A stretch of DNA of 64,000 nt from Acetomicrobium hydrogeniformans ATCC BAA-1850 (GCF_000160455.2 NZ_ACJX03000001.1:630001-694000); one strand, 5' to 3'. Numbered from the stretch's first letter, positions 27,169 through 55,709 are shown. The notes: generated by a model not told the origin, from the letters alone. Numbers and translations: made by a program.

Positions 27169-28065
27169 CTACCAGCGTGTGACGAGATCTCTCATAAGGC
27201 CGCGATGAATGGCGTCCAGGAAATACAAAAAAATCCCCGATACCACCAAATCTGCCGTCGTGCCTGGATTTCTTTTATTTCCTTTTTTACGGAGGAAGTT
27301 ATCGAAATTATGAATAGATTTTCTTCCTCTTTCGGTCATAACCCCTCCCCTCTCCAAAACCTCGAAGGCCTTTCCGGAAATCTCTACCGCTTCCTCCCAT
27401 CCCAGCTTGCGGAATATCAAAGTATCGGGAACCTTGGAAAGAATTGTCAAAAAGGCTTGCACAGCAGCATCTCGCAATCTCAACCCCCTCTCCAGCGCGT
27501 CGGCAAAGGATGGCAAGGAGAGCTCGAAGGTAATGGAAAAATCGGTCACGTATTCCCTTGCTATAGAATCTCTATCCGAAGCAGCAGCCATTGCTTCTCT
27601 CAAAGTGATTCCCTGAGGCATCTCATTTACGTCATATAGGTCCACCCGACCCATACCGCCTGCGCCCGACATCCTTATGGCTTCATATGTCTTGACGGCG
27701 TCGCTTTCGCTTAGACTGCCAAGAACACCTCTTAAGGAATTGCGAATAGCTTCGGTATCAGAATCGTTATCGCAACATAGGGCAGCTTTAGAAAGGGGAG
27801 CCAATAGCAATATAATGCCTAAATTCACATTTGCAGAGGTGAGCTTTGCTCTTGCTTTAATGCTTTCCAAAACGATTTCTCCCACGGACAATCTGTCAAG
27901 CTCTTGAAAGGCCGAACCCAGTGCGACAGCCCCTGCAAAAAAATCAAAGGGGTTAGTGTCGTGAAAAGATCTGTTTATATGAACGTTGCCAGGTTTCTTT
28001 GAGCATACTTCAACGATTGAAGCTAATTGAGCGGCCCAGATAATCTCGTCTATAGCATACATCAT
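27169..28065 (-). CDS. CitG/MdcB-like triphosphoribosyl-dephospho-CoA synthase family protein
   Basis: A 298-residue CitG-family protein (KPGNVHINRSFHDTNPFDFF near residue 24; NVNLGIILLLAPLSKAAL near 77). Classical members make the prosthetic-group precursor of citrate or malonate lyase, but no lyase genes are here. CitG-like genes are regular members of the methanopterin C1 gene sets of methylotrophs (orf5 type) and occur in methanogens. A role in methanopterin or methanofuran cofactor assembly is therefore more likely, by inference. It is the last gene of the C1 operon, 14 bp after the ATP-grasp gene, and converges with mnmE. Confidence 0.85.
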   Translation of the reverse strand: MMYAIDEIIWAAQLASIVEVCSKKPGNVHINRSFHDTNPFDFFAGAVALGSAFQELDRLSVGEIVLESIKARAKLTSANVNLGIILLLAPLSKAALCCDNDSDTEAIRNSLRGVLGSLSESDAVKTYEAIRMSGAGGMGRVDLYDVNEMPQGITLREAMAAASDRDSIAREYVTDFSITFELSLPSFADALERGLRLRDAAVQAFLTILSKVPDTLIFRKLGWEEAVEISGKAFEVLERGGVMTERGRKSIHNFDNFLRKKGNKRNPGTTADLVVSGIFLYFLDAIHRGLMRDLVTRW

Positions 28066-28079
28066 GTTTAATCACTCTA

Positions 28080-28937
28080 TCATAATATAGCATCGACAAT
28101 GGTCGATGCTATATCCGATCGCGCAACCTGCTGGAGCCCTCTCCAACCCGGTATTCCGTTAACCTCCAATAAGTAAAGCTCTCCTTCTTTAGAGGGCAAA
28201 ATATCAACTCCTGCATAAAATGCTCCAACGGCCTCGACAGCGCGTAGGCTTAAATCGACTATACTGGTGTCCGGATCCAAAGGGCTAACCTCTGCTCCTA
28301 GGGCCACATTGCACCTCCAATCAGAGGAGTGCCTCTTCATCGCTGCTATAACACGCCCATTTATCACGAAGACCCTTATATCATTACCTTCGTGGGGAAT
28401 GAACCTTTGAAGATAGTATACATATCTACATTGATATAATGCCATAAATACTCTATGAGCAGTCTCGGGATCCGTCACCCTTATCATACCTCTGCCTTCC
28501 GAACCAAAGAGAGGCTTAACCACTACATCACAGCCCAATTCCTTAAAGGCAGTCATGGCATCTTCATATCTTTCAGTAATGTAAGTCTCCGGAACTTTCA
28601 ATCCTGCCCGAGAGAGCAAGGCTGTAGTATACATCTTGTCCACAGTCCTCTCCAAAGCCCGAGGGGAATTCACAATCTCTACGTCCTTAACTTCCCCCAG
28701 CACATGAAGCAAGTCCACCCTAAATATCACCTGTTCCAACGAACCTCCAGGCAAGGAACGTACTAAAACCACATCTCCAATATCTGTCCCAACGCCCGGA
28801 CAAGCTATATCATCCTTTATAAAAGCCTTCATTTCTTTGGCGCGAAGAACGTTAACGACAACACCTCTTTTTTGAAATGCCCCTATCAGTGCCTCAACAT
28901 GCCAGGCGTTTTCCGATCCCAATATCGTTACCTTCAT
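28080..28937 (-). CDS. RimK-type ATP-grasp ligase, probable methanopterin glutamate ligase (MptN-like)
   Basis: A 285-residue ATP-grasp enzyme. RimK-like features include VVKPLFGSEGRGMIRV near residue 140, the DIRVFVINGRVIAAMKRHS stretch near 195 and the metal-binding LLEVNGIPGW near 262. MptN in archaea adds alpha-glutamate to tetrahydromethanopterin, giving tetrahydrosarcinapterin; homologs accompany C1 gene clusters in bacterial methylotrophs. The ATG sits in an ATGA overlap with mch. The exact acceptor (pterin or furan cofactor) is inferred from context. Confidence 0.83.
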   Translation of the reverse strand: MKVTILGSENAWHVEALIGAFQKRGVVVNVLRAKEMKAFIKDDIACPGVGTDIGDVVLVRSLPGGSLEQVIFRVDLLHVLGEVKDVEIVNSPRALERTVDKMYTTALLSRAGLKVPETYITERYEDAMTAFKELGCDVVVKPLFGSEGRGMIRVTDPETAHRVFMALYQCRYVYYLQRFIPHEGNDIRVFVINGRVIAAMKRHSSDWRCNVALGAEVSPLDPDTSIVDLSLRAVEAVGAFYAGVDILPSKEGELYLLEVNGIPGWRGLQQVARSDIASTIVDAIL

Positions 28938-29878
28938 TGTTCAAACCATTCGCGCCTCAGAAGCTCGAGGTTTTCTCTTCCGAAGTTCTGCCAACGCCCT
29001 GTAGCAATATTGTTTATTGATACGCTTGCCGGACTGAAAAGCATGGGATCTACTTGGTAAAAGTCGTAATTATATCTTTTAAAAAGCTCCGAAAAGGGTA
29101 AACCATAATCTTTAGAAGATGCGGAGGGCAGTTTTTCGGCGATGGAATCGATCGCAGAATCTTTGTCGCAGAGCGTAAACCACACCTTGCCACCATATAA
29201 TACCGCATCGTTAGTCCAACCCATAGCAGTCATAAAATCTCCTGGTGTCGGGGAAATGGGGCAAATTCCGTAACCGTGGATGAGCATCGTCGTATCGTAA
29301 CCTAGTTCGAATAGTTTATGAACCCCTGTTTCAACTACTCTCGATACGATCTGAACGGCTCCTGCCAAGGAATTGGTAGGTGCCACCAAAACGTACAGGT
29401 CCCTCGGATCGACGTCGCATTTTCTTGATATCGAATCCAATAAGCTTTCAGGGGGAAGTATAGATGATTCGATCGCCAGCACGGCAACGGGTGAAGTTTC
29501 TTTGTATTCAAGCACAGAATACAAGGGCTCGTTGCAGTAAAGCGACCTGGCGGGGCCGGAACCCAGTGCGAAAAAATCTCCCTCTTTCAGGGCCCAACCA
29601 GCATATTGCGAAGCAAGGCAGGCAACTGCAGGATTTGCAACCTGCACTGTAACGCTAGGGATCGATAATCCGGGATAGACGCCGAAACTCACCTCTCCAA
29701 AGCCTCCCATACAGGCCTCTGCGAAAAGTCTGCCCGCCTCATAAGAACCATTCGAACCTATGCCAACATCTAAAACTGTCGATCCTGTCTTTGTCTTAAT
29801 AACGGATATGCCCAATTCATGAGATTTTTCGATCATTTCGCTTACGCGTTCATACGCTCCCTCATTAAGAGTTTTCAA
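28934..29878 (-). CDS. mch: Methenyltetrahydromethanopterin cyclohydrolase
   Basis: A 314-residue cyclohydrolase interconverting methenyl-H4MPT and N5-formyl-H4MPT. Family features: a VLDVGIGSNGSYEAGRLFAEACMGG segment near residue 34, GSGPARSL near 107, and SPTPGDFMTAMGWTNDAVLYGG near 210. It is the Mch family of methanogens and methylotrophs, unrelated to folate FolD. The TTG start at 29878 overlaps the fmdC 3' end by 14 nt. With mtdB, ftr and fmdABCD it gives the complete methylene-H4MPT to CO2 segment in one operon. Confidence 0.95.
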   Translation of the reverse strand: MKTLNEGAYERVSEMIEKSHELGISVIKTKTGSTVLDVGIGSNGSYEAGRLFAEACMGGFGEVSFGVYPGLSIPSVTVQVANPAVACLASQYAGWALKEGDFFALGSGPARSLYCNEPLYSVLEYKETSPVAVLAIESSILPPESLLDSISRKCDVDPRDLYVLVAPTNSLAGAVQIVSRVVETGVHKLFELGYDTTMLIHGYGICPISPTPGDFMTAMGWTNDAVLYGGKVWFTLCDKDSAIDSIAEKLPSASSKDYGLPFSELFKRYNYDFYQVDPMLFSPASVSINNIATGRWQNFGRENLELLRREWFEQ

Positions 29879-30731
29879 GGATCAAAATCTCCCCCTTCCC
29901 CAGCGAAGACATATCTCCAACATGCCTTCTGTAAAGACCGTTAAAAATTTCATCGGTAATGGGAAAACCTCTATCCCATAAATACTTAAAATAAAGCTTC
30001 AGGTATGTGGGCGAATAAAGGCAACTATAGCCAAACGTTGAAAGCACTCTATCGGTTCCTCCTATCGATACTATGCTCCCCCTCTTCATGCCACCACCTG
30101 CGTTGAGCCCCATTTTTCCAAATACTACAATCGTGCCTGCTATCATGTTGGCTCCGGCAAAATCTCCGGCATCTCCCGTCACTGCTATGAGGCCTCTCCT
30201 CATCCCCTCTCCAACCCTGTTTCCAACAGAGCCGAAGACCATGATCATACCACCTCTCATGCCCTTGCTGTTTCCTGGAAGAGGAGAGCCTAGCATGGCC
30301 TTCGCATTGCCCTTTACGATTACCGTCCCGCCCGACATCTCACAACAGCACCGTGGCTCTAAATTACCATTAACGACAATCGTTCCGCCTTTCATACGTT
30401 GGCCCAAGTGCATGCCTGCATCTCCCTCGACCATGATCAGGCCCGATGTCATCCCTTCACCAATTCCTTTGACGTGTTTTAGTTCGCCCTCAAATATCAG
30501 CGCTTCGTCACCCTCGTATTTCACTTCAAAGACATCACCAAGGTCTGCGGACTCATTGCCAACGAATACTTTGAAGGAGGCGATTTCAACCGGCTCCTTG
30601 CCCAATACCGACTCAGGCAAAATCCCGTCCACCTCTATGGGAATTGCCACGCTTTTCTTTAAACTTAAGGTAACTCCCTTCACCTTTCCTGAGTAAGCCT
30701 TCCCCAACGTACAAAGGGCACAACTATGCAT
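29865..30731 (-). CDS. fmdC: Formylmethanofuran dehydrogenase subunit C
   Basis: A 288-residue subunit whose C-terminal half is a beta-helix of GxxGxxxG-type repeats (about 90-250: GTIVVNG, GTVIVKG, GMIMVFG, GLIAVTG, GTIVVFG), related to the glutamate synthase alpha C-terminal domain. FmdC is a structural subunit that positions FmdA and FmdB. The ATG at 30729-30731 follows a GAGGTG site; a longer frame to 30803 would overlap the chemoreceptor gene. It is separated from the other fmd genes by cofactor genes and an MCP gene, yet remains in the same operon. Confidence 0.93.
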   Translation of the reverse strand: MHSCALCTLGKAYSGKVKGVTLSLKKSVAIPIEVDGILPESVLGKEPVEIASFKVFVGNESADLGDVFEVKYEGDEALIFEGELKHVKGIGEGMTSGLIMVEGDAGMHLGQRMKGGTIVVNGNLEPRCCCEMSGGTVIVKGNAKAMLGSPLPGNSKGMRGGMIMVFGSVGNRVGEGMRRGLIAVTGDAGDFAGANMIAGTIVVFGKMGLNAGGGMKRGSIVSIGGTDRVLSTFGYSCLYSPTYLKLYFKYLWDRGFPITDEIFNGLYRRHVGDMSSLGKGEILILENS

Positions 30732-30759
30732 TCTCTTCACCTCGGCACTCTGTGTAAAC

Positions 30760-32067
30760 TTACTGTAACTTATCCCCCTCCCAAAGCCTAAACTGTCCGA
30801 CAAGGCTTCGAAGGGTTAATGCTAGTTCTTCCATATTGTTCGATTTGTCGCTCAACTGCGAGGCCGATTCGGCAAGGTCCGTCATAGCTTTCTTCGCTTC
30901 TACGACGAAGTCCTTTATCCTTTCCACCTCTCTAGATATGCTTTGTAGGGTGGCAGATATCTCTTCTGATGATGCAGCCTGTTCCTGAGAGACCGAAGAC
31001 AAATCGTTCGCGGCAGAAGATATCTTTCTAAGGTATTCTAAGATATCTTCTATTACCTTCATGGTCGCCTGAGCCTTCTCGTTCGCATCTAAAGAGACAT
31101 CCGATCCGACCTTTACCGAATTTACGACACTGTCTAATTTAAATGACATATCATTCATTTGATGGGCTACGTTGCCAGCGACATCGTTTGATTCATAAGC
31201 CAACTTCCTAATCTCTTCTGCGACCACGGCAAATCCCTTCCCTCCTGCACCAGCTCTTGCTGCTTCTATCCCTGCATTGAGGGCTAACATGTTCGTCCTG
31301 GTCGCTATTTTTGAGATGTTTTCCAAAAGCAAATTGATTTCTTCGATCTTTTGCACCAGTTCGTTTACTGTGTCTATATTCTTGATAGATTCCTGGGCTG
31401 CCTCCTTGATCTTTTCTCTCATCACCTGAATAACCCCTAGCCCTCTTTCCGCCGACCGTGAAGCATCAGCAATCTCCTGAGCTATATCCATAGTCCTCGA
31501 TGCCGCTAATTGATTTCCAGAGGCTACTTCTTGAATTCCCTCGGTGATGGCATTCATATCGGAGACAAACCTCTCAACCATGTCCGACAATTTTGTAATT
31601 TCATTAAGAAGGTTACCTGCTACTCGATCATCTTTGTTTGCCATTTCGTGTACTATTTTGGATACATTTTCTATCTCAGTGGAGGAGTTGGATATTACTC
31701 CTATTAGGTCCTGAATACGATCTAGGAATTCATAGGTCGACTTGCCCACTTCGGCCATCTCATCGCGAGACCAAACATCGTATTCGAGGGTAAAATCTAA
31801 TGTTTCCTTTAACTTTTTTAAAAATTTCCTATATTCGTCTATTGGAAGGGTTATAGAGAACAAGAGGGTTAAGCCACCTATTATTGTAAATAGAATTAAT
31901 ATCGTGATGAAAATTATCAAAAGATCAAAGGACTCCACGACATTTAAATGCACATACCCTATTGCACATTCAAACACTAAAAGTATTGTTAAAAAGACCA
32001 TAATACGTGATTTTATCGATATTTTTCTTAATAACTTCGAAATTTTCACGATCAACCACCCAATCAC
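30760..32067 (-). CDS. Methyl-accepting chemotaxis protein embedded in the C1 operon
   Basis: A 435-residue chemoreceptor with two closely spaced transmembrane helices (about 22-45 and 50-72) and almost no periplasmic domain. A coiled-coil signalling region follows. The signalling tip is [33 protein letters not shown] at about residues 255-290 (stated in two overlapping parts: [18 protein letters not shown] and [15 protein letters not shown]). With no extracytoplasmic sensor it probably senses membrane, cytoplasmic or redox state. It starts with GTG in a GTGA overlap with ftr, 28 bp ahead of fmdC, so it is transcribed with the pathway. A link between C1 metabolism and taxis is inference. Confidence 0.92.
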
Positions 32068-32954
32068 ATATTCTTTAAAATTTCTAGCAAGTGGAATTTA
32101 TATTGTCCCAGGTTTCCCCCATAATTTCCTGCAGTTATCGAAATTACGTTGCATGAAGTTGCAGCTAAAAGGCCGTAGCCCATCGCATCTCTTACAGACT
32201 TTTCATCCAAACCGTCTATGACTATTTCATAAACGGCATTCACTTCCTCTGACAACGAAGTCTTTACTTGCCTTTTCAGGGTGGGACAAAAAGAAACATT
32301 AGTGGAAGCGTTCAAAAAAGGGTATGTAGAGCTAACTTTACTACCGCTTCGGACGATACCGCCGGGAAAGGGAAGAATTATCCCTGGCACTTTCTTCATG
32401 GACTTTACGGCCCTTTGGGCAGCTTCGAGACAAGAGGTAACGTCTTTAGCCAAAATCAACAAGTTCCCGCCACCCACGCCTTTCTTCACGCAAAACTTTT
32501 GCTCGACCAAAAACTCCCCATCCATTACGGGAATCCTCCAAAATCTCCTCTTGTCGAGAAATTTGCTCGATTGATAAGAATCCCCGAAATATCTGAGTTT
32601 TCCGCCAACGTCTATCTGCTCTCCCTCATCAAGTCCGTTGTAGCAGGCCGTAGTGGGACAGGTCATTATGGATTGGCCTATTCTAGAGATGAGCTGAGAC
32701 TCCAAAGCTGACTTGGAAACGCCAAAGATCAAAATGCTTGTTCCGGGACGGCCGTCCGGTGTCTGAGTGCTATTCAACTCCGCCTCTATTCCCGCCTCAC
32801 AGCCACAACCAATGACGGATGTGGCAAATCCCGTGGCAGACACCGCTGCCGTCATGGCCCATTCAGGGGTATCTGCCGTAACTACGAGCCGGCTTCCCCA
32901 CATTGAAAATGCCTCTGCGTAAGTATCTTCGACATTAACTCCATTATAAATCAT
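32064..32954 (-). CDS. ftr: Formylmethanofuran--tetrahydromethanopterin formyltransferase
   Basis: A 296-residue enzyme (called FhcD in methylotrophs) moving the formyl group between methanofuran and H4MPT. Recognisable features: [15 protein letters not shown] at the N-terminus, an [18 protein letters not shown] stretch near residue 40, TPDGRPG near 68, [11 protein letters not shown] near 98, and [13 protein letters not shown] at the C-terminus. The ATG overlaps the mptG stop by 11 nt. Its presence with mch and fmdABC identifies the carrier pair as methanofuran plus a methanopterin-type pterin. Confidence 0.95.
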
Positions 32955-33912
32955 TAAATCGATCCCCTCTCACTTCCACGCATGCCCCTTCCTGCGCACA
33001 GGAAGTAACAAATATCAACGAGCCATCTCCAAATGTGTCTTTAAGCTTCGCGCAAATAACTCGTGCAGTCCCTTGATCTTGTGTTATGCCGTAAACTGTT
33101 GGCCCCCACGAACTTTGCCCGATGCCTACAGCTCCTTCTTTTTTCATACAAAGCGCCATGTCCTCAGACAGTTGCGAGTTGAAATTCCCCCCTTGTGCTT
33201 TAGAAAAACAACGGCCAATCAAATCCTGTATTCCTGTAACAGCTTCACCGAAGCCACAGATTTCTTTTTCTACAATGGAAGGCAACAGTTTCATCAATGT
33301 AATTCGACATATATTTGAAGACAACTCCTCGTGTATGCTTAGGGATCGAAATTTTTCGTCCTCTTCAGCACCGCTTATTCCTTTAAGAAACAAAGGTATT
33401 GCAACGACAAAGGCCCACTCGCGCGGAAGCAGGCTGTGAAAGAGCAAAGGAGGAAAACCTGTTCCGCCCCACCTTTTGTGCCCCCCATCCAAGACAAACC
33501 CTCCTCTTTCAAACGTTACGGTACCGACACTTGACCTTTTGCTTCTTCCCATTATGCCTGCCAAATCCTTCACCGATACGTCTATCCCAAAGAGGACAGA
33601 AAGGGCCCTGCCTACTGCTAAGGCCAATCGCGTTCCCGATCCCAGCCCGACGTGGGAGGGTATGGAGGAAATGATTTTTATGTCGACACCCCCTTGAATG
33701 CCGAAGAAAGACAAAAACTTCTCTGCGTATTGCAATGCCCTTTCAGCATCCGGTCCCTCTACTGTCAAAATGTCGTTCAAGGAGACATCCAGCACTACCT
33801 TTGGCTCGTTTATGCCCACGCCTATGCCGCCGAAAATTCTTCCAAGGCTCCCGTTTAAATCAAGAAAACCAAAATGCAGTCTGGCGCCTGTTTCGACGTG
33901 AACAACCCTCAA
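32944..33912 (-). CDS. mptG: Beta-ribofuranosylaminobenzene 5'-phosphate synthase (beta-RFAP synthase)
   Basis: A 322-residue GHMP-kinase-fold enzyme that condenses 4-hydroxybenzoate or 4-aminobenzoate with PRPP, the first committed step to the methanopterin aryl-ribose unit. Motifs: ETGARLHFGFLDLNGSLGR at the N-terminus, IPSHVGLGSGTRLALAVGRAL near residue 85 (the GHMP glycine-rich loop) and GQSSWGPTVYGI near 270. It is the most diagnostic methanopterin biosynthesis gene. The TTG start is in a TTGA overlap with the DUF447 gene. Confidence 0.93.
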   Translation of the reverse strand: MRVVHVETGARLHFGFLDLNGSLGRIFGGIGVGINEPKVVLDVSLNDILTVEGPDAERALQYAEKFLSFFGIQGGVDIKIISSIPSHVGLGSGTRLALAVGRALSVLFGIDVSVKDLAGIMGRSKRSSVGTVTFERGGFVLDGGHKRWGGTGFPPLLFHSLLPREWAFVVAIPLFLKGISGAEEDEKFRSLSIHEELSSNICRITLMKLLPSIVEKEICGFGEAVTGIQDLIGRCFSKAQGGNFNSQLSEDMALCMKKEGAVGIGQSSWGPTVYGITQDQGTARVICAKLKDTFGDGSLIFVTSCAQEGACVEVRGDRFNDL

Positions 33913-34460
33913 CTAAATACCCCCTTAAGATAATTATCTATGACGGCAAGCGCTTCCATTTCCCGCTCTCCTCCAGTCTTTTCTACTATGATCTTCGCCT
34001 CGAATATGCACCTATCAAAAAAACTCTTTTTATAAAATTGATATCTTGTTGCTGCTATCAAAAGTTCCATAATTGAACATTTAGCTCTATTATAGCCCTT
34101 AAAGGGACGCCCTATTCCATAATAAAGAACGGAACAGAGAAAGCTTCCTCTATCTGTCTCTTCGCTCACCTCGAAGGCTTCAAATTCAATCCAGGAACAA
34201 ACATCTACATATACAAACCCGGCTATTTTTTGAGCTTGTCGGCATTGAAGATCAGGATCATCCAGGGCGCTAAGGCAAAAGGATAAAATGTCATCTGTGA
34301 TATTGGCTACAAAATAGCCAAATCTCAATAGATTTCTGTATGTATGGCTGGATTTATAGGGATACAAAAAATATCGACCTTCACTTTCTTTTAAGCCCAT
34401 GGGTGCCCAATTGGGAGATCCGTCGGCATTCAAGGTGGAAACTATAACTTCATAAATCAT
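33909..34460 (-). CDS. DUF447-family protein (flavin-reductase-like fold)
   Basis: A 183-residue protein of the DUF447 family: IYEVIVSTLNADGSPNWAPMG at the start, a YKSSHTYRNLL segment near 37, and a conserved RAKCSIMELLIAATR stretch near 125. DUF447 genes recur in the methanopterin C1 clusters of methylotrophs and in methanogens. Their biochemical role is not established; cofactor synthesis is inferred from co-occurrence. The ATG overlaps the end of the DHPS-like gene by 11 nt. Confidence 0.85.
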   Translation of the reverse strand: MIYEVIVSTLNADGSPNWAPMGLKESEGRYFLYPYKSSHTYRNLLRFGYFVANITDDILSFCLSALDDPDLQCRQAQKIAGFVYVDVCSWIEFEAFEVSEETDRGSFLCSVLYYGIGRPFKGYNRAKCSIMELLIAATRYQFYKKSFFDRCIFEAKIIVEKTGGEREMEALAVIDNYLKGVFS

Positions 34461-35778
34461 CGTCTGACAAATAGCCCCAGTCCAAGGGGCGCTCCTGCAT
34501 ATATTTTTTGCCCAATTTCGCGGCCAAAAAAGCTTTTTCGAGCTCTCTCCCTAAATAAAAGGCATGACCCGGATCGTTAACACCGATGGATTGAAAAAGC
34601 ATATTAATATCTTTGCCCTTCAAAAATATCGAATTGTTGAAAATATATATATACCCATCTGCTACAAAAATACGGAAGTTTTTATCCGTTACTTTTTTAT
34701 GAATGTCGATTATCTCCTCTTCGCTATAGACCTCGAAAGGAGTATCCTTGGCTGTCACTAATCCCAGGTTAAAACCCTTGGGCAACATCCCCGATTCCCT
34801 TGCACTTTCGTGCATTAAGCTCGCCAGGTATGTTTCCCTTACTGCACCCCTAGCCCAACTTGTCACTTCAGTTGTCAAGACATAATTGATCTCAAGCTCC
34901 GCACAAATTCCCAAAAGAATGGCATTTATTCCGGTAGAGTCTGCTTCCGTAAGTTCTGTCAAATTTCCGATCCCCATAAGCATCTCATCATCAGGGAAGC
35001 GTCTTCTGTATTCTACGTAGCGTCCGATCGACTCGGAAAGGCCAAAGGGAAGGGGGTCAAGAATTGGATCAACCAGATATTTCTTGCCTCTATCCCTTAA
35101 TCTGGCCACGTTCCTTTCCAATGAATTAAGGTTTTTGTCTTCAAAATCGGGTATTACAACCACCGGACATGACAGCCTGAAGGCAAGATCTATGTTGAAA
35201 CTGTTGACACTCAAATAAAGGTCGATGCCGAATTTATCAGCTTCTAGGGCTGTCTTTTCGTCAAATGTGTCAAGGCTAACGCATAAGTTCAACTCCTTTA
35301 AAACCGATACAATGTCGCCAATGTTGGGGATAGACCCCTTATTTGGTCCGCCAATGTCAATTATCGTTGCTCCCTTGGCTTTGTAATCAAGTGCTTTATT
35401 GACAATTTCATTTAGCGTCATTTTATGAGCATCAACTATCTCGGCCAATATCCTTATATTGGGCTTTGTCTTTTTCAAATGCGTCGAAAAACCGAAAAAG
35501 CCGGGGAGGTCTTTTAGATCCTTAGGACCCCTCTTGACTTCCACGCCCAACGCTTCGGCAAGAACCTTCTCATCGCCCTGACACAAGCCTGGCAAAATGA
35601 CGACATCAGCATCCCCTGCGCTCCTCAGCTGCGACATAACCCAGGTAACGTTCATAAGAGCCGCAACGGAGATAGGCAAAACGGACACTTCATAAGAAAA
35701 AGGAGGGTCCATGTTCTTCAGGATATTAAGCAAGGCGTTATGGGCTAACCTGCCAGTTACAAATAAAATCTTAGACAA
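34450..35778 (-). CDS. Dihydropteroate-synthase-like protein of the methanopterin type
   Basis: A 442-residue protein of the DHPS-related family found in methanogens and methylotroph C1 clusters (DUF6513/TIGR00284-like). An N-terminal region (about 1-110) precedes a TIM-barrel pterin-binding-like domain with KGATIIDIGGPNKGSIPN near 135 and CVSLDTFDEKTA near 165. It probably couples 7,8-dihydropterin-6-methyl diphosphate to beta-RFAP in methanopterin synthesis; that role is inferred. The TTG start overlaps the flavoprotein gene by 22 nt. Confidence 0.85.
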   Translation of the reverse strand: MSKILFVTGRLAHNALLNILKNMDPPFSYEVSVLPISVAALMNVTWVMSQLRSAGDADVVILPGLCQGDEKVLAEALGVEVKRGPKDLKDLPGFFGFSTHLKKTKPNIRILAEIVDAHKMTLNEIVNKALDYKAKGATIIDIGGPNKGSIPNIGDIVSVLKELNLCVSLDTFDEKTALEADKFGIDLYLSVNSFNIDLAFRLSCPVVVIPDFEDKNLNSLERNVARLRDRGKKYLVDPILDPLPFGLSESIGRYVEYRRRFPDDEMLMGIGNLTELTEADSTGINAILLGICAELEINYVLTTEVTSWARGAVRETYLASLMHESARESGMLPKGFNLGLVTAKDTPFEVYSEEEIIDIHKKVTDKNFRIFVADGYIYIFNNSIFLKGKDINMLFQSIGVNDPGHAFYLGRELEKAFLAAKLGKKYMQERPLDWGYLSDDDL

Positions 35779-36278: not shown

Positions 36279-37741
36279 AGCTTCAACCACTCTTCCAAAG
36301 TAACACTTGAACATAAGATATCATCTTTTAAGCGTATTTCACCTCTTATATCGCCCAGTAATCCGCTTCTTTCCGCAAAGGCATTATGTTGATGGATGCT
36401 TTCCAAGCTCTCCTCTCTAGCCAATACAAAAGTATCATCGGGAAGATCGGGGTAAACTTCCACTAAATTCAACAGCATATGCCTAACAACGTCCTCAGCA
36501 AACCTGGCATTTTGATGAGCTTTATTGACAACAAAAAACTCATCAGGCCTCTTAAGCAGTTCATATGTCTCGGAACTCATTGATGCCTCTATAATATGTA
36601 CCAGATGCTCCGCTCGAACGGACATGTCAGAACCGACGAGCAGCGTCCCCCTTGCCCTCTGATTATGAGTGGCCATCGGGATCAAACTGACGATCTTTGC
36701 TGCTTCCTCTGAAGTATAACCTGCTTCCTTAAGCAACATCCTCGAATGTGAAGCCATCATGTCTTGAGCGCAGGGACAGGCAGTCATCCCTTCAACTTCT
36801 ACGCCAATAACCCTGCGAGACATTTTGCCGTCAGTGGATGCGATACCTATAAATGTAAATAATTCCTCGGTCTTCTTGGCCGAAATCGGAGTCACCCTTT
36901 CCATTGGATACTTCGCTTTTATCCGCACCTCAGCTTTCTTAGCTCTCTGAGACTGAACAACCTGAAGGGCAAGCCTCTCGGCAAGGCTTTCAATATCCGG
37001 AGAAGGTTCCAGGGAAATCTCTTCTACTATGCCTTCCAATACATCTGTAAATCTTGACATGTGCACACCTGCTTTGTATGGATCGAGGTAGGCAAAAAAA
37101 TCAAGCGTGGCGTAAAAAAGCTCCGCCTTACCCTTAACCCCCAACCTTATTACCCTATTCAAATTTGTAATGCCCACCCTGGACAAGCCGACATTAATAG
37201 AGGGTCGACCACCCTGTATATCGCTTTCCAGTTTGAATTTAAGGCTTCTGTCTACCTTTTTCACAGTTGAAGCATCTATTTTTTGAGACATATCTTTTAT
37301 CGTCTCGTTTGTAAGGGGGTGAACGTAGTCTGGAGCTATTTCCGCCAAGGGAATTAGAGTAAAAGCTCTTTCCTGCATTCTAGGATGAGGTATCCATATA
37401 TCACTTTCCTTTATTATGAGATCATCGTAAAATAAAAGATCTATATCTATGGGTCTGGGGGCATTTCTCTCAGCAAAGGTGCGTCCCATCCTCCTCTCTA
37501 TCCACTTCAAAAAAGCCAACAGGTCTTTAGGCGAATCGTCGGTGGTAATTTGACAAGCCATATTCAGGTACTTCGGCTGGTCACTTCCGTCTAACGGCTC
37601 CGTTTCGTAGAAAGAAGATACCCTTTCTACTTTCGCTCTTACCTGGATATATTGAAGCGCCTGCAAAATATTGCTTTGTCTGTCGCCTAAGTTGGCTCCT
37701 AAAAGGATAAAGGCAACGTGTCTCTGTTCCTGTAAGTTCAC
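36275..37741 (-). CDS. folK-mptA: Bifunctional HPPK (FolK) - GTP cyclohydrolase MptA/FolE2 fusion
   Basis: A 488-residue fusion. Residues about 8-165 are a complete 6-hydroxymethyl-dihydropterin pyrophosphokinase (FILLGANLGD, RTFAERNAPRPIDIDLLFYDD and HPRMQERAFTLIPLAEIAPD). Residues about 178-488 are a COG1469 GTP cyclohydrolase (MptA/FolE2) with His227 in VHMSRF, MTACPCAQ (Cys322, Cys324) and THNQRAR (His359). The reading frame through the linker is clean. MptA makes 7,8-dihydroneopterin 2',3'-cyclic phosphate for methanopterin; FolE2 makes dihydroneopterin triphosphate for folate. Context favours methanopterin. GTG start in a GTGA overlap with fmdA. Confidence 0.9.
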   Translation of the reverse strand: MNLQEQRHVAFILLGANLGDRQSNILQALQYIQVRAKVERVSSFYETEPLDGSDQPKYLNMACQITTDDSPKDLLAFLKWIERRMGRTFAERNAPRPIDIDLLFYDDLIIKESDIWIPHPRMQERAFTLIPLAEIAPDYVHPLTNETIKDMSQKIDASTVKKVDRSLKFKLESDIQGGRPSINVGLSRVGITNLNRVIRLGVKGKAELFYATLDFFAYLDPYKAGVHMSRFTDVLEGIVEEISLEPSPDIESLAERLALQVVQSQRAKKAEVRIKAKYPMERVTPISAKKTEELFTFIGIASTDGKMSRRVIGVEVEGMTACPCAQDMMASHSRMLLKEAGYTSEEAAKIVSLIPMATHNQRARGTLLVGSDMSVRAEHLVHIIEASMSSETYELLKRPDEFFVVNKAHQNARFAEDVVRHMLLNLVEVYPDLPDDTFVLAREESLESIHQHNAFAERSGLLGDIRGEIRLKDDILCSSVTLEEWLKL

Positions 37742-39399
37742 TGGCAGGCCACCCCTTTAGTGTCTTTTAAGTACTCTTCCTGGACGGGATAGTTATCAAA
37801 AGAAAGGGTATAATATCTCTCAAAATCTTCTCTTATTTTATCTACGATTAGCCCGTCATAAGAAGGATTCACCCTATATACCACCCCGGGGATATCCCTT
37901 AAAATCGCACCATCCCTCACGACTATTTCTCCACCCTTTATAACCCATGACGGAAAATCAAGGGCTCGGCGACAAGGTTTAAAGCTGCAGAGACACTTTC
38001 TTTTTCCGAACTGATTAGGATCATATACCGCCACGTCTCCATCGGCTCCAATGCCCAGATGTCCCTTTTCCGCCAAGCCTAATATCTTTGCTGGAGCAGC
38101 TCTCGTTATTATCGCTATTTCATAAAGAGTATACTCTCGATTCAATTCCCTCAAGACCGACCCCCTGAAGGCCTTCGGAGGCAATAAGCTTATAAAGTGA
38201 TCCCTGTAATCTTTATCCATCAAAAGCCTTACAACTTGAGGATAACAGAAGAAAGGCCCTGCATTGGGATGATCTGTCGTGAGAGCCAACTGCCACGGAT
38301 CTTTAGTCAGTAAAAAAAGCTCCATACCAGTAATCCATTGAACTGCCGACGAGACCGATTTAATTTTATATTCCAAAGGAACTATTCCGCCACCGGTCTC
38401 ACACTCCACATCATCATTACACCACTTATGGCCCGTCATTTTTTGTATTCTATACTCAAGAGGTCCATCGGACGTCATAGTGACGGCATTGCCGAAAACG
38501 ATCTGGCCGACGTCCATTGTCACGTTGGGATGCCCATTTAAAACTTCGGCAACAGCCCCGGCGCCACTGCGTAGCCCACCTTTTTTGTTCCTTCCATAGC
38601 TCATAAACTGCAGGTGACAGAGGTGAAGTCTGCCGGGGATATCTTTTATGATCTCCACTGTCGTATCGGCGTTTCCGGGCAACCCCAAGTTTATTCCGTG
38701 TAGATGTACCGAATGGGGGAGGTTGAGTTCATCAACTATAGTGACTAGACTATTTATCAATTTTCTCGATGTAATGCCAAAATGTCGCACTTCGTCATCC
38801 CAACTTTCCACATTACCTCCCCACTTCCAGTTCTCAACTCCGCCTGGATTTACTACTTTAACGCCATAACCTCCAGTCGATTTCAGCAGCCAGGCCACGA
38901 TATCTCTTGCTTCGTCGATTTTGCCCTGCGAAATCCTGTCCATCAAAATTTCGTTATTACCCATGGTAATTAATATCGCTTTATCCAAAGAAGGCATGTC
39001 TCTTAACTCTTCGTGAGCATGACGTGTCACCAGGGGGGCAGATGCAGCCTCTACAACCGTAGTGTACCCCATCTCGACATATCTGTAGGCAGTCATGAAT
39101 GTCGTAGGCACTCTGGAGCCGACGCCGGACCTCAATCCCCTTTCGGCAATCCTAAAATGCTCATAATGATCTTCAGGACAAAGCTTTCTGCCCATATTAA
39201 CTTTGGACCCTGCAATATGTGCATGCATATCAATACCGCCCGGCATCACAATCATGCCGTCTGCATCTATTGATATTGCATCTTTAGGGATGTGATCGGG
39301 CTTTTCAACAATCTTGCCGCCTTCAATGTAAATGTCCCTAACTTCTCCGTCTATATCGTTTATTGGGTCATACACCTGACCGTTTTTTATAACTAACAT
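37738..39399 (-). CDS. fmdA: Formylmethanofuran dehydrogenase subunit A
   Basis: A 553-residue amidohydrolase-fold subunit that hydrolyses or forms the formamide bond between formate and methanofuran at a binuclear metal site. Seen: GGIDMHAHIAGSKVNMGR (His59, His61), a YGVKVVNPGGVENWKWGG stretch near residue 180 for the carboxylated-lysine region, VHLHGINLGLPGN near 233 and LTTDHPNAGPF near 375. Length and motifs match FwdA/FmdA/FhcA. It overlaps the fmdB stop by 7 nt. The metal ligands appear intact, so an active site is expected. Confidence 0.95.
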   Translation of the reverse strand: MLVIKNGQVYDPINDIDGEVRDIYIEGGKIVEKPDHIPKDAISIDADGMIVMPGGIDMHAHIAGSKVNMGRKLCPEDHYEHFRIAERGLRSGVGSRVPTTFMTAYRYVEMGYTTVVEAASAPLVTRHAHEELRDMPSLDKAILITMGNNEILMDRISQGKIDEARDIVAWLLKSTGGYGVKVVNPGGVENWKWGGNVESWDDEVRHFGITSRKLINSLVTIVDELNLPHSVHLHGINLGLPGNADTTVEIIKDIPGRLHLCHLQFMSYGRNKKGGLRSGAGAVAEVLNGHPNVTMDVGQIVFGNAVTMTSDGPLEYRIQKMTGHKWCNDDVECETGGGIVPLEYKIKSVSSAVQWITGMELFLLTKDPWQLALTTDHPNAGPFFCYPQVVRLLMDKDYRDHFISLLPPKAFRGSVLRELNREYTLYEIAIITRAAPAKILGLAEKGHLGIGADGDVAVYDPNQFGKRKCLCSFKPCRRALDFPSWVIKGGEIVVRDGAILRDIPGVVYRVNPSYDGLIVDKIREDFERYYTLSFDNYPVQEEYLKDTKGVACQ

Positions 39400-40664
39400 T
39401 CTTTCACGCCCTCAAAGATAGCTTCCAAAACCTCTTCGTCACTCTTTCTCTGTCGTTCCAAAGGAGCTTTCAAACGCAATGGCACACTGTCCATTCTATA
39501 TGCAGTACCTTCGCAGTCTACTCCATACATAGCAGTCGGAAAATAAACAGTAGCGATTTTCGCGGTCAAGCTCTCCACTGGATCTATCACTATGGATGGA
39601 ATTTTCTCGATATGTCTTGTCGCCCCGGCAGGAAAATGTGCAACCGGATCTGATGCTATGACCAGCAAAGCGTCTGCCTCCCCGCCGGACAATAGATCGA
39701 CAGCGGTAAATTCGCCGGGGCCGTACCTGGGATACCCCTTTGAAAAGTTGATGGCAAAAGGAAACCCGCATAGCCAGGACATAACCTGATCCGCTCCGGT
39801 CACGTTACCGTGACCTCGCATCGGCAAAGCAGAAAATCTCGTATAATTATTCAACTCCCTGACCAGAGAAAAGACCTCGCGAACGTTTAAATCCCTACCT
39901 TTCGTCATGGTCAAACCCATTCCGAAAAAGATGACACCATAACGACATGACTTCATTGTATGAACAAATTGTTGTAATAGTTCTGTCGGAACCCCTCCAA
40001 CCTCGGTTGCGCTTATAGCCTTACCTTTTACAAGGGCCTTTATCGCTAAAAGAACTTCGTAGTCATATCCTTGCCTTATTTGTATAAATAGGTCTGCCGC
40101 CTTGGCCGTCTCTGAACGACGGACATCAACGACTACAACTTTGCGGTCTTTCCTCCCTTCTGAGATAAAACGCCCCTTGGGCATGGCTGAATACCTGGCA
40201 AAGTGTCTGCTATGAGATACAAGGGGGTTGCAACCCCAAAATACGAGCAAATCTGCCCTATTTTTTATCTCCCCCAAGGTGCAGGTCGGCTCTCCAACGG
40301 ATTGCATGGCCAAACCCGTGGGCCCATGGCATACAGAAGAAGTAGAATCTATTGAAGCACCGATAGTTTCTGCGAGCTGCACCGAGATGCGTTGCGCTTC
40401 GATCGATGTGGAAGATAAACCATATATTAACGGATACTTAGCAGAGGAGAGGATGTTCGAGGCTTCTTTTATCGCCTCAAGAAAGGTAACCTCCTTTCCG
40501 TTAACTCGAGGCGCACGGAAATGAGGATCGTAACCCTCGAACAAACCTCTTCCGTTGGCACATGCCTTCTCGACCTTGGTTATGTTGTTGTTCTCAATAG
40601 TTAGGGTTATATCGTCACACAGACAACCGCAAAAGGTGCATACGACGTTCTTCTCGATCTTCAT
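39393..40664 (-). CDS. fmdB: Formylmethanofuran dehydrogenase subunit B (Mo/W-pterin catalytic subunit)
   Basis: A 423-residue molybdopterin-oxidoreductase-type subunit. The N-terminal CxxCxxxC (Cys9, Cys12, Cys16) plus Cys35 form a [4Fe-4S] site. The metal ligand position is Cys112 in SVCHGPTG, where some methanogens have selenocysteine. Both features are intact, unlike what has been described for the Methylobacterium FhcB homolog, so CO2/formate redox chemistry is expected. The ATG is in an ATGA overlap with fmdD, which supplies the C-terminal dinucleotide-binding domain as a separate chain. Confidence 0.95.
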   Translation of the reverse strand: MKIEKNVVCTFCGCLCDDITLTIENNNITKVEKACANGRGLFEGYDPHFRAPRVNGKEVTFLEAIKEASNILSSAKYPLIYGLSSTSIEAQRISVQLAETIGASIDSTSSVCHGPTGLAMQSVGEPTCTLGEIKNRADLLVFWGCNPLVSHSRHFARYSAMPKGRFISEGRKDRKVVVVDVRRSETAKAADLFIQIRQGYDYEVLLAIKALVKGKAISATEVGGVPTELLQQFVHTMKSCRYGVIFFGMGLTMTKGRDLNVREVFSLVRELNNYTRFSALPMRGHGNVTGADQVMSWLCGFPFAINFSKGYPRYGPGEFTAVDLLSGGEADALLVIASDPVAHFPAGATRHIEKIPSIVIDPVESLTAKIATVYFPTAMYGVDCEGTAYRMDSVPLRLKAPLERQRKSDEEVLEAIFEGVKEC

Positions 40665-41017
40665 AGCGCCTTGTCGACCTCCACCTTTAAGCCCTTAAAG
40701 GATGGCATACCCGTTCCCTCGGTCTCAGGTCCTACCAGAAGGTTAACCATTGGGCCCATGGGCATGAAAACTACATCTTCGGGCAATCCCATGTCTGCGC
40801 ACGTCTTTACCCGCACACTTCCATAGGGAGTCGTCAATAAAATCTCCTCTCCCTCGCTTAAACCAAGTTTTTCCAGAAGCAGGGGCGATAAAAAGGCCTT
40901 TTCAACTGCTTTTTTATAGCCGTCACTATTTTTACCGCCATGCATGCCCTTGGCCTGCTCCAGCGTCCGTCCGGATATCAAAGTACAAACTTGCACATCA
41001 ATCTTTCCGCCTTTCAT
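40661..41017 (-). CDS. fmdD: Formylmethanofuran dehydrogenase subunit D (molybdopterin dinucleotide-binding)
   Basis: A 118-residue double-psi beta-barrel protein of the molydopterin-dinucleotide-binding family: VCTLISGRTLEQAKGMHGGKNSDGY near the start, LGLSEGEEILLTTPYGSVRVK near 53 and VFMPMGPMVNLLVG near 83. In methanogens FmdD completes the pterin site with FmdB; bacterial methylotroph Fhc complexes usually lack it. Its 5' end overlaps the ATP-grasp gene by 20 nt. Its presence supports a redox-active formylmethanofuran dehydrogenase. Confidence 0.92.
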   Translation of the reverse strand: MKGGKIDVQVCTLISGRTLEQAKGMHGGKNSDGYKKAVEKAFLSPLLLEKLGLSEGEEILLTTPYGSVRVKTCADMGLPEDVVFMPMGPMVNLLVGPETEGTGMPSFKGLKVEVDKAL

Positions 41018-42137
41018 GATAAACGTCGCTTCTTAACTCTCGATATATCTCATTTGCCCTTTCATATAAATGAAAAAGGCAGCCTTCTTCGCTTATACCT
41101 CTACCAAATACGCTACATACAGGAGAACTTTTGGGGATGCTCTCGCCGGGAAAGGGAATGTCGGCATGCACCCCGAGCCAACTGGATGTATCGGGGGTCA
41201 TTGAATCTGCTTTGGCATAAACTATGCCTTTAGAAACGATTTCAGACGGATTGACCAAGGATACCTCTTCCAGCTTGCCCTCGCAGGCCAATTTGTGGAG
41301 AGAGAGTAAGGGCATGTTGACATAGGGTTCAATCAGCTCCATAGAAGCTGTGTATCGAGGATTGATCTCCACTAAACAGGGCCTTTCGTCTCCGCCTAAT
41401 ATAAAATCTATACCGAACAGGCCTTTCAGGCCAAAATGACCCACCATTTTCTCTCCCCATTGTGATATCACATCTGCCAGACCAGCAAAATCAGGCGAAA
41501 GGGGAAACACGTTGCCGCACCACTTAAAGCCAGAACCCCCAAGCAATTCATCACCTATAAGCTGTCGTGTCATGCCTAGAAGTCGACAGCCCTTTCCGTC
41601 AGACAAGAAAGACGCTGAGGCAGGAAGACCTGACACAAACTTTTGAACATAAAATCCTTCTCCTATTTCCTCCCCCTCATAAAAACGGATACCAAAACCG
41701 CTTCCACCATACACCGGTTTCATCAACCATCTTTCATTAAGATCCATATTGCTCGTTTCATCGGGCAGCAAGGTCGTTGGGAAATTAATCCCCATTGTGT
41801 GACAGGCGTCGCGCAATGTTACAGGATCTCTAATGTCGCGCAAAACTTCGGAATCGTTGCCCAACAATAACTTGTCTTTCGAAATAAAATGTATAAGAGA
41901 GGGCTTGATATCTGCTCCCCCGGTGTAGATAACAGCATCATATTCGATCAAGGAACAAACTTTAATGATCGACTCCTCGCTAAAAGGAAGACCAAAATCC
42001 CTTCCTACTGCCAAACTGGGAATTATGAGCCTTTGATCAAGATCTCCGAAGTAGTCTACAGCAATAATCTTTAAGTCCGCCTTTAACGCAGACTGCGCTA
42101 AAGCCCTTGTGCTCACTCCTACGAGTAGGACCCTCAA
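40998..42137 (-). CDS. ATP-grasp protein of methanopterin/methanofuran gene clusters
   Basis: A 379-residue ATP-grasp protein (VLLVGVSTRALAQSALKA at the N-terminus, WLMKPVYGGSGFGIRFY near 140, and the metal-binding PCLVEINPRYTASMELIE near 265). Similar proteins (orf17 type, related to MfnD-like enzymes) accompany H4MPT clusters in methylotrophs and methanogens. An amide-forming role, such as glutamylation of methanofuran or the pterin, is inferred. Start TTG at 42137, directly after the mtdB stop. Confidence 0.83.
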   Translation of the reverse strand: MRVLLVGVSTRALAQSALKADLKIIAVDYFGDLDQRLIIPSLAVGRDFGLPFSEESIIKVCSLIEYDAVIYTGGADIKPSLIHFISKDKLLLGNDSEVLRDIRDPVTLRDACHTMGINFPTTLLPDETSNMDLNERWLMKPVYGGSGFGIRFYEGEEIGEGFYVQKFVSGLPASASFLSDGKGCRLLGMTRQLIGDELLGGSGFKWCGNVFPLSPDFAGLADVISQWGEKMVGHFGLKGLFGIDFILGGDERPCLVEINPRYTASMELIEPYVNMPLLSLHKLACEGKLEEVSLVNPSEIVSKGIVYAKADSMTPDTSSWLGVHADIPFPGESIPKSSPVCSVFGRGISEEGCLFHLYERANEIYRELRSDVYHERRKD

Positions 42138-42995
42138 TTAAGAAAGCTCCTTGGCCATCTCTAATATCGATTTTGCGTCAAAGACAATGTCGTTTTTCTC
42201 GAAAAGTTTTGCAACGCATGCCCTGTGCACTCTCATCTTGAGTCCGCCGATTCCCATAGAACCAAATAATACCTTCCCCTCTACCACTTCTCCGTTGAAA
42301 GAAGATTTCATCCCCTCCACGCCAAGGGGTGGCACAGCGTTGACGTCCCCAAGGACTCGCAAAGTAGGATGACCCTTCCACAACTCCTCCCCGATTAAAG
42401 TAACTCCGGGCGCTCCGGTGCAAAGAGCGGCTACAGCACCATCCAGGGCTTCTTTCGTGCTTTCATCGTCGAAGGCGGCACATGCGTTTACTTCCAAACC
42501 AAACATAGCCTTTATCTCTTCCGCAGACCTTTTTGCCTTTTCCAGCTTCCTGGATGTAACAAAGACCTTTGCCCCTTCTATGGCAAACATCGCTGCAGCC
42601 CGTTGTCCTACGGGACCGGTACCCGCCAACACAACTACCTTTTGCCCCTTGACGTCGCATTCTTTGGTCATCTTTGCAACTGCAGCAGCAGCTGTGGTAT
42701 TGCAACCGCTGGGATCGAACATTACAGAATTCCTCACGTTACCGAAAAATGTACTTTTGACTATTTCAAGTATTTCAGCAGCCTCAATCACCTTGGAACC
42801 GCCTATAAAAATGGCGCTGAATTTTAAATTGTCTCCTCCGCGGGTAAACATAACTCCATAAACTAAATCTCTGACGTTTTCTTTCGTTACATTTCCATAT
42901 TGCAGGACGATATCAGCTCCGGCGTCATAAGCTGTTACGGCATCGAAAACGCTGGGCAAAGAATCGCAATCCAATTGAAGCAGGATTTTTTTCAA
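42138..42995 (-). CDS. mtdB: NAD(P)-dependent methylene-tetrahydromethanopterin dehydrogenase
   Basis: A 285-residue enzyme of the MtdB/MtdA family. The methylene-H4MPT dehydrogenase N-terminal domain (LLQLDCDSLPSVFDAVTAYDAGAD) is followed by a Rossmann domain with VVLAGTGPVGQRAAAMFAIEG near residue 118. It oxidises methylene-H4MPT to methenyl-H4MPT with NAD(P), as in methylotrophic bacteria, instead of the F420- or H2-dependent enzymes of methanogens. TTG start with a GGGGGT site. It follows the DUF2193-like gene by 69 bp, across a hairpin. Confidence 0.94.
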   Translation of the reverse strand: MKKILLQLDCDSLPSVFDAVTAYDAGADIVLQYGNVTKENVRDLVYGVMFTRGGDNLKFSAIFIGGSKVIEAAEILEIVKSTFFGNVRNSVMFDPSGCNTTAAAAVAKMTKECDVKGQKVVVLAGTGPVGQRAAAMFAIEGAKVFVTSRKLEKAKRSAEEIKAMFGLEVNACAAFDDESTKEALDGAVAALCTGAPGVTLIGEELWKGHPTLRVLGDVNAVPPLGVEGMKSSFNGEVVEGKVLFGSMGIGGLKMRVHRACVAKLFEKNDIVFDAKSILEMAKELS

Positions 42996-43020
42996 GACAT
43001 TTACCCCCTTTGCATATTAA

Positions 43021-43047
43021 GGGGGCCGGAATTTCTCCGAACCCCCC
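43021..43047 (-). promoter_or_regulatory. Intercistronic hairpin between the DUF2193-like gene and mtdB
   Basis: On the minus strand a GGGGG/CCCCC stem extended by CGG/CCG (43047-43021) lies in the only sizeable gap near the start of the C1 operon, and is followed by TTAATA rather than a T-run. It could act as a partial terminator or RNA-processing site giving the first gene higher expression. This is inference. Confidence 0.5.
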
Positions 43048-43064
43048 ATTCTACAAGACTCTAG

Positions 43065-44600
43065 CTAAACAGCTCTATACCATTCACAGTATCCGCAGGG
43101 GCCTGCCCCTTCGCCTTTGACGTAGGGGACGTTTCTCTTGATGAGCTTCGTCACGGCACATCCTTTGCAGGCTCTAACAGGAGCACCGGGCATACCGGGA
43201 TTCTTGGCCACGATGTTTGTCATCAAAGTGGCGGTAGTGCATTCGGGTGTCAAGTAGCACGGAAAATCTGCCAGTGCCATCAAAGCAGCAAACCTCTGAG
43301 TTATAGCGCAGGCAGGATAGGTGTACCTTTGAGGATTGCTCACTATTTCGTGTTTGTCAATTGGCGAAAGGTCTACCTCGATTCCCTTAATTTTACCACC
43401 TGCTCCAAGGGGACTGATATCCAAAATTTCTTCCCCTCTCAATATTACGTCCATGAAATCCACGTTGTGGAGTTCGTCGGCCTCCCCTCTCTTCGGGTTC
43501 ATGGCACAATAGTTATAGAACCGCTTTGTAAGAAGGTCAATTACCATAGGAACAGTGAAGCTATCAAGCCATAGGGTATAAGCCACGGCGCATGCCGGGG
43601 CCCCAGTAGCGACTGCCAAAACGTCCCACTCGCTTTTGAAAGCCCCTTCTTTCAAACCCTTCTTAAGGGTATTTTCAAAGACCTGCATTACAGCATCGTA
43701 TATCCCAAAGACCATGTCGTTTTTAAACATATTGTACGCCGATTGTGAAATGTGATGTCCCACATCGCCGACACAATAAGCCGGAACAGCCGTTATGTTG
43801 GCCGGATGCACGCCGGCCTTCAAGGCAGCCACAACATAGGGACGCATTCTTTCTTTATATTGTGCCATATACTTTCTCACATCGAAGGAGCTGTGAGGAC
43901 CGTGTCCACCTAAGTTATGAGTCTCCATGAGCCTTGCCTGAGCTTCCACAGGTTCCTTATATATGAACTGGAACTGTTTTACCTCTGCATCTTCCGCCTC
44001 GGCAGCCGATTTCCCTGCCTCAATGGCAGCTCGAAAGGCAGCACCAAAGCCATAGGATGTATTCATGCCCCAGGATTTGCAAGCAAGGATTGTCTTTTTG
44101 TCTTTGTCCGGAATATCTAATCCGAGTAAAATTTTGTTCACAAGATTAGGCACGGAACCTACGGACATCGCAAAATCAACAACACATGTAGGGCCGTACA
44201 TGCCGCCATATCTGCGAGCCGCTTCGCGCCCTATCAATGCCCTGTTTTCGCCGATAGCCTCGATGAACTTGTCCATTGATTTTTTGAAATCGGGGTCTTC
44301 CTCATAGAGTATTTCGAGTATGGGCGGGGTTTGATAATGTTCCACAAAGGGATCATCTTCCGGCCGAATATAATCGGTCAGCCCTTTTAAAATTTCGTAA
44401 TGGGCATTGACCGACTGGACGTGAAGATCGATGACTTCCTTGCACTGACCCTCGCCTACGGACATCTTGTTGACCGCATCGACATAGGGCTTGCAGTCAT
44501 CCAGCCTAAACTGACCACCGCGTTTTTCTTTTATCACAAGAAAAACGGACTTCGTGGCATCAATTGCTTCATTAAGCATCTTTTCAATTAAAGTAACCAT
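43065..44600 (-). CDS. DUF2193-like protein, first gene of the C1 operon
   Basis: A 511-residue soluble protein with no transmembrane segment. From memory it resembles DUF2193, a methanogen-associated family of unknown function; I could not verify this. The C-terminus carries two CxxC pairs (Cys478/Cys481 and Cys502/Cys505) plus further Cys in YPACAITQR and LTPECTTATL, a likely metal or Fe-S site. Several His/Asp-rich conserved-looking stretches (NLGGHGPHSSFD near 230; CVGDVGHHISQSAYN near 282) suggest an enzyme. The ATG has GGAGG/GGAAGG upstream and a strong promoter about 125-150 bp ahead. Its place before mtdB suggests it feeds or senses the C1 pathway; this is inference. Confidence 0.75.
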   Translation of the reverse strand: MVTLIEKMLNEAIDATKSVFLVIKEKRGGQFRLDDCKPYVDAVNKMSVGEGQCKEVIDLHVQSVNAHYEILKGLTDYIRPEDDPFVEHYQTPPILEILYEEDPDFKKSMDKFIEAIGENRALIGREAARRYGGMYGPTCVVDFAMSVGSVPNLVNKILLGLDIPDKDKKTILACKSWGMNTSYGFGAAFRAAIEAGKSAAEAEDAEVKQFQFIYKEPVEAQARLMETHNLGGHGPHSSFDVRKYMAQYKERMRPYVVAALKAGVHPANITAVPAYCVGDVGHHISQSAYNMFKNDMVFGIYDAVMQVFENTLKKGLKEGAFKSEWDVLAVATGAPACAVAYTLWLDSFTVPMVIDLLTKRFYNYCAMNPKRGEADELHNVDFMDVILRGEEILDISPLGAGGKIKGIEVDLSPIDKHEIVSNPQRYTYPACAITQRFAALMALADFPCYLTPECTTATLMTNIVAKNPGMPGAPVRACKGCAVTKLIKRNVPYVKGEGAGPCGYCEWYRAV

Positions 44601-49527: not shown

Positions 49528-49529
49528 CC

Positions 49530-50147: not shown

Positions 50148-50165
50148 ATTTTAGGAGGGATAAAA

Positions 50166-51350: not shown

Positions 51351-51352
51351 TT

Positions 51353-53801: not shown

Positions 53802-53834
53802 GAAACACACCTCCTCAGAACATCTTTATAAAAT

Positions 53835-55640: not shown

Positions 55641-55669
55641 TTAAACACACCCCTTAATGCCCTAAAATA

Positions 55670-55702: not shown

Positions 55703-55709
55703 AACAATC

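Follow-up and report, generated by a model that had tools for sequence, protein, structure and literature searches.

Two described systems are among the closest to the locus analyzed here, a set of overlapping genes for one-carbon (C1) chemistry on tetrahydromethanopterin (H4MPT) and methanofuran (MFR) in a 64,000-nucleotide window of the Acetomicrobium hydrogeniformans OS1 genome (NZ_ACJX03000001.1:630001-694000; assembly 2,123,925 bp, 8 contigs, largest 2,103,414). One is the archaeal tungsten/molybdenum (W/Mo) formylmethanofuran dehydrogenase, Fwd/Fmd; the other is the H4MPT oxidation module of the methylotroph Methylobacterium extorquens (MtdA/MtdB, Mch, and the Fhc hydrolase), whose folate branch has FchA and FtfL. 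For bacteria with neither a methanogenic nor a methylotrophic lifestyle, the function of these H4MPT/MFR genes has been called enigmatic (PMC5020050). Chistoserdova (2016) listed Synergistetes among the H4MPT/MFR bacteria, with FwdD and Afp (PMC5020050), and the 2018 OS1 genome announcement named formylmethanofuran dehydrogenase A–E, Mch, and Ftr and proposed lateral transfer (PMC6025917).

The gene set in Acetomicrobium is therefore already known. A sequence-only reading of the window, which rightly placed it in Synergistota, had taken the pathway for an undescribed trait of that phylum; this claim fails, since the announcement reports the same Fmd, Mch, and Ftr genes from the same genome and OS1 was thus on record as a carrier. 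The operon itself, MtdB, the cofactor genes, the lack of FolD, and DUF2193 go unmentioned there. We found no published account in which the MtdB-like enzyme is, among the families tested, the sole methylene-pterin dehydrogenase of the genome, nor one of DUF2193 co-occurring with Mch. A cultured, sequenced fermenter that lacks FolD, encodes both cofactor pathways, and has defined C1 sources makes the question of the enigmatic role directly testable, and the DUF2193 family gains a concrete functional lead.

Six-frame open reading frames combined with Pfam and NCBIfam profile searches of the window delineate 17 closely packed minus-strand genes at 27169-44600 (Table 1). Neighboring genes mostly overlap (−4 to −44 nt), with a 69-nt gap separating DUF2193 from MtdB and a 14-nt one ahead of the CitG-family gene. 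The genes, families, and methylene-H4MPT-to-CO2 segment with cofactor genes proposed by the sequence-only reading were recovered as described, FmdA through its match to FwdA structures; its list was correct as given and left two members unnamed, a methyl-accepting chemotaxis protein (MCP) and DUF2193. We favor the reading that the operon encodes a complete H4MPT/MFR C1 segment and most of the H4MPT pathway and that this segment probably serves to oxidize the methylene groups of glycine and serine to CO2, with ferredoxin and NAD(P)H passing electrons to H2.

FmdB aligns lengthwise with archaeal FwdB (5t5i, 8rja; 1e-126): C112-H113 falls on the SVCHGP segment that holds the Mo/W ligand cysteine and the catalytic histidine, and the N-terminal 4Fe-4S cysteines C9, C12, C16, and C35 are all aligned. 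The match to the M. extorquens FhcB chain (6s6y_B) reaches 8.4e-15 and covers residues 239-345 only, roughly a quarter of the query; set against 1e-126, it rules out identity with the nonredox methylotroph Fhc and its truncated FhcB. Judged by these alignments, FmdB belongs with the true formylmethanofuran dehydrogenases of redox type, not with the methylotroph hydrolases. FmdA retains the dinuclear metal motifs of 5t5i_A (HxH, the VKVVNP lysine, HLH, and the TTD aspartate), and the molybdopterin-binding subunit FmdD is present, so that subunits A–D and these active-site and cluster ligands are shared with the archaeal enzymes. The components shared with M. extorquens are the MtdA/B-type dehydrogenase, Mch, and Ftr, together with FchA and Fhs alongside a missing FolD; unlike that methylotroph, Acetomicrobium is an anaerobic fermenter without Fae and carries a redox-type FmdB with FmdD in place of the Fhc hydrolase. 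The MtdB-like protein has an Mpt_N domain (PF09176) and full-length similarity to M. extorquens MtdA (1lu9, 2e-77), its nearest match in the PDB. For Ftr, the M. extorquens FhcD chain scores a little higher (321 bits) than the archaeal FTRs do (278-287 bits; 1e-82 to 1e-84). The chimeric make-up noted by the sequence-only reading, a methylotroph-type MtdB beside archaeal-type FmdB and FmdD with intact metal and Fe-S ligands, is a fair description.

Both carriers are plausibly made in OS1, as judged from gene content, because H4MPT genes lie in the operon and Mfn genes elsewhere in the genome. MptA (TIGR00294) and beta-RFA-P synthase (TIGR00144) both exceed their cut-offs. A methanofuran cluster of MfnD-like, MfnF, MfnE, and MfnB genes lies away from the operon (OS1 contig C1:64079-67520); TIGR03123 (MfnF) and PF04476 exceed cut-off, and MfnE and the MfnD-like protein fall below theirs for equivalogs. 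Of 24 Synergistota genomes searched, just 4 gave an MfnB match, and in most Mch-bearing ones other than OS1 it was not found, so the remaining Synergistota clusters may depend on another route to methanofuran.

The folate side suggests why such a pathway might persist. No FolD exceeded cut-off in any of six Acetomicrobium genomes, and the MtdB-like gene is the sole PF09176 copy in OS1, which makes its product the only methylene-pterin dehydrogenase in this genome among the families tested. Formyltetrahydrofolate synthetase (Fhs) occurs in five of the six, with two copies in OS1, one of which adjoins a serine hydroxymethyltransferase (SHMT) gene as read from the sequence. Glycine-cleavage T/H/P1/P2 genes are clustered (GcvT by profile, its neighbors by sequence reading), a methylenetetrahydrofolate reductase gene is present next to a MetH-like gene, and an FTCD_C/FchA gene lies within an apparent histidine-degradation operon. 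Methylene-tetrahydrofolate (methylene-H4F) from glycine or serine could then not reach formyl-H4F through FolD, and the only dehydrogenase seen is that of the operon; we infer that the pathway was kept for this reason. M. extorquens MtdA also serves the folate branch, and the MtdB-like enzyme, as the sole dehydrogenase found, may do the same.

In the proposed scheme, methylene groups of serine and glycine would pass through SHMT and glycine cleavage to H4MPT, where the MtdB-like enzyme would oxidize methylene- to methenyl-H4MPT with NAD(P)+ and Mch would yield formyl-H4MPT. Ftr would transfer the formyl group to MFR, the FmdA metal site of FmdABCD would hydrolyze formyl-MFR to formate, and the FmdB Mo/W site would oxidize formate to CO2 and reduce ferredoxin; electrons from ferredoxin and NAD(P)H would leave as H2, and the MtdB-like enzyme could also work on the folate branch as MtdA does in M. 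extorquens. Genes, conserved residues, synteny, and presence or absence are what was observed; from them we infer which way flux runs, which electron acceptor is used, where C1 units enter, and that both pterins are used. The physiology is compatible: A. hydrogeniformans forms close to 4 H2 from each glucose and possesses both hydrogenases and formate dehydrogenases (PMC6025917), and a related A. mobile-like Acetomicrobium metagenome-assembled genome (MAG) expresses glycine-cleavage genes and lacks carbon monoxide dehydrogenase (CODH) (PMC11201294).

Several observations weigh against this scheme. The MptN, dihydropteroate-synthase (DHPS)-like, AfpA, and MfnD-like assignments all fall below curated cut-offs. 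Methanogen complexes include FwdF/FwdG, whereas no such ferredoxin subunits occur among the operon genes, the operon alone having been searched; bacterial FwdABCD without FwdE/F/G has likewise been reported (PMC7325909). Some Mch-bearing Synergistota families retain FolD, and one Synergistota genome (G002) has neither FolD nor Mch. Finally, the reverse flux, from CO2 to methylene groups with glycine and serine made, would need the same genes.

That reductive direction is the rival to be taken most seriously, even if we judge it unlikely: CO2 would enter as formyl-MFR and supply C1 units from methylene-H4MPT for glycine, serine, and other biosynthesis, in effect the reductive glycine route run on H4MPT. 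The reversible redox type of FmdB, the presence of glycine cleavage and SHMT, and published discussion of reductive glycine genes in Acetomicrobium (PMC9347119, PMC11201294) are all compatible with it, but Fhs and FchA already permit formate assimilation to formyl- and methenyl-H4F, NAD(P)-linked MtdA/B enzymes of methylotrophs work oxidatively, and the host lives by H2-producing fermentation. A methylotroph-type module for formaldehyde oxidation or detoxification, to which the affinities of MtdB and Ftr might point, is very improbable, as FmdB is not of the Fhc hydrolase form and none of 24 Synergistota genomes tested contains Fae (PF08714), which rules out formaldehyde entry through that enzyme. 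Hardly any weight falls on the methyl branch of an H4MPT-type Wood–Ljungdahl pathway, for acetogenesis or acetate oxidation. The same cluster does occur in CdhC-bearing Chloroflexota, an Actinomycetota MAG, and Dethiosulfatarculus, but CdhC is absent from all six Acetomicrobium genomes and from most Mch-bearing Synergistota; the missing CODH/acetyl-CoA synthase disfavors this route, in keeping with the A. mobile-like MAG (PMC11201294).

A search of related genomes, as the sequence-only reading had suggested, covered 188 Synergistota genomes from 63 genera and recovered Mch in 23 genomes from 11 genera, mostly within a cluster of strongly conserved order; since this order recurs across the phylum, the operon is not a chance arrangement. 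Clusters of a comparable kind appear in named genome records of MAGs from Chloroflexota, Caldisericota, and Actinomycetota. These uncultivated lineages share the gene set and part of the order, with DUF2193 at or near the head; several of the genomes also carry CdhC and four Chloroflexota carry Fae, whereas Acetomicrobium has neither. In an Mch tree of bacterial sequences, drawn without archaeal or proteobacterial ones, Synergistota do not form one clade and deep support is weak. A foreign base composition is ruled out by near-equal GC content (45.8% in the operon, 45.4% in the remaining window).

The link between operon and FolD loss is not general across the phylum, because some Mch-bearing families keep FolD: it exceeded cut-off in 11 of 23 Mch-bearing genomes, which together with G002 rules out simple phylum-wide replacement. 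Among high-quality genomes, FolD is missing from 6 of 13 with Mch vs., as counted from the listings, 9 of 103 without (Fisher P = 0.002, a test that ignores kinship). G002 itself has an MtdA-like PF09176 gene (L089:7077-7970), preceded by a gene resembling window positions 52234-53031; its product may serve as a folate dehydrogenase where the H4MPT cluster is missing.

DUF2193, whose gene opens the operon, shows 69-82% identity between phyla, vs. roughly 30-60% for most other cluster proteins. Nineteen of the 20 Synergistota genomes with DUF2193 also have Mch (hypergeometric P = 3e-21, ignoring kinship), as do the genomes of all 11 further loci tested; one of these, GBS-1, duplicates a contig already counted under Synergistota genome G004, which leaves 10 of 10 genomes from other phyla. 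DUF2193 usually adjoins the cluster; Dethiosulfatarculus, one of the 10, has both, with DUF2193 not next to the cluster. The association extends over at least five bacterial phyla. DUF2193 is not a universal H4MPT partner, however, as M. jannaschii and a 97%-complete genome (G019) have Mch without it, and its neighbors vary too much (MFS, SSF, amino acid permease, pterin-binding protein, transposase) for a shared transporter to hint at a substrate.

Seven cysteines and eight histidines of the protein are invariant. Its predicted structure, from 23 sequences, is all-helical (pLDDT 78, pTM 0.83), and Foldseek returned no PDB match at E ≤ 0.001; parts of the model, including residues 133-149, are of low confidence, so a new fold is a possibility at most. 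The literature searched yielded one passing mention, a proteomic study of pyrite-grown Methanococcus voltae in which DUF2193 was more abundant and labile Fe-S binding was proposed (PMC9431491), an alternative role to be considered. As a lead, we suggest that DUF2193 might load C1 units onto H4MPT or care for a metal or intermediate of the pathway. The bolder combination is doubtful: that DUF2193 is a dedicated H4MPT C1 component of unseen fold, perhaps the C1-loading step where Fae is missing, and that the operon dehydrogenase took over the role of FolD in Acetomicrobium.

Table 1. Genes of the H4MPT/MFR operon, in order from its 5′ end (window coordinates; assignments predicted from the matches given)
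Gene product	Coordinates	Strand	Evidence
DUF2193, uncharacterized, first gene	43065..44600	-	PF09959 3.9e-233
MtdA/MtdB-type methylene-H4MPT dehydrogenase, NAD(P)-linked, perhaps also acting on methylene-H4F, predicted	42138..42995	-	PF09176; 1lu9 2e-77
ATP-grasp, weakly MfnD-like (tyramine-glutamate ligase family)	40998..42137	-	ATP-grasp_3; NF040722 3.5e-07, far below cut-off
FmdD, molybdopterin dinucleotide-binding subunit	40661..41017	-	Molydop_binding PF01568 2e-14
FmdB, catalytic formylmethanofuran dehydrogenase subunit	39393..40664	-	TIGR03129 548 bits, cut-off 328; FwdB 5t5i/8rja 1e-126
FmdA, formyl-MFR amidohydrolase subunit	37738..39399	-	FwdA structures 4.8e-146
FolK-MptA fusion (HPPK + GTP cyclohydrolase)	36275..37741	-	TIGR00294 284 bits, folK 125 bits; both above cut-off
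AfpA/DmrB-like flavoprotein, candidate dihydromethanopterin reductase	35757..36314	-	TIGR02699 2.6e-33, TIGR02700 1e-30; both below cut-off
DHPS-like, DUF6513 + DUF4346	34450..35778	-	TIGR00284 202 bits, below cut-off 257
DUF447 protein	33909..34460	-	PF04289, PF20766
MptG, beta-RFA-P synthase family	32944..33912	-	TIGR00144 185 bits, above cut-off 113.5
Ftr, formyl-MFR:H4MPT formyltransferase	32064..32954	-	PF01913 FTR + PF02741 FTR_C; 6s6y_D 7e-95
Short MCP, inserted in operon	30760..32067	-	PF00015 1.6e-32
FmdC (GXGXG), start moved from 30803	29865..30731	-	TIGR03122 252 bits, above cut-off; junction sequence
Mch, methenyl-H4MPT cyclohydrolase	28934..29878	-	PF02289 5.7e-118; TIGR03120 above cut-off; 1qlm 1.7e-83
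RimK-type ATP-grasp, best match MptN (H4MPT:glutamate ligase)	28080..28937	-	NF040720 230 bits, below equivalog cut-off 350
CitG-family protein, last gene	27169..28065	-	PF01874 4e-66; far below CitG/MdcB equivalog cut-offs

The start of FmdC has two candidates, an ATG at 30731 with an upstream GAGGTGA site and a TTG at 30803; by this junction sequence the former is probably the true one. With that start, FmdC has a CALC motif at its N terminus, in front of the TIGR03122 domain. The MCP gene between Ftr and FmdC occurs in OS1 and one other Acetomicrobium genome (G011, 69% identical) and is missing from the same-species assembly G015 and from genomes G013 and G014; it looks like a lineage-variable passenger.

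An Rfam search of the window gave no match, and promoter and terminator matches within it were no better than in shuffled sequence. Beyond the operon, the plus strand at 46387-52150 reads as a tryptophan operon (trpE, D, C, F, B, A; Pfam confirms the trpE family only), and a minus-strand cluster at 52234-56942 looks like 5-oxoprolinase PxpA/B/C genes accompanied by those for a DUF1445-like protein and a transporter.

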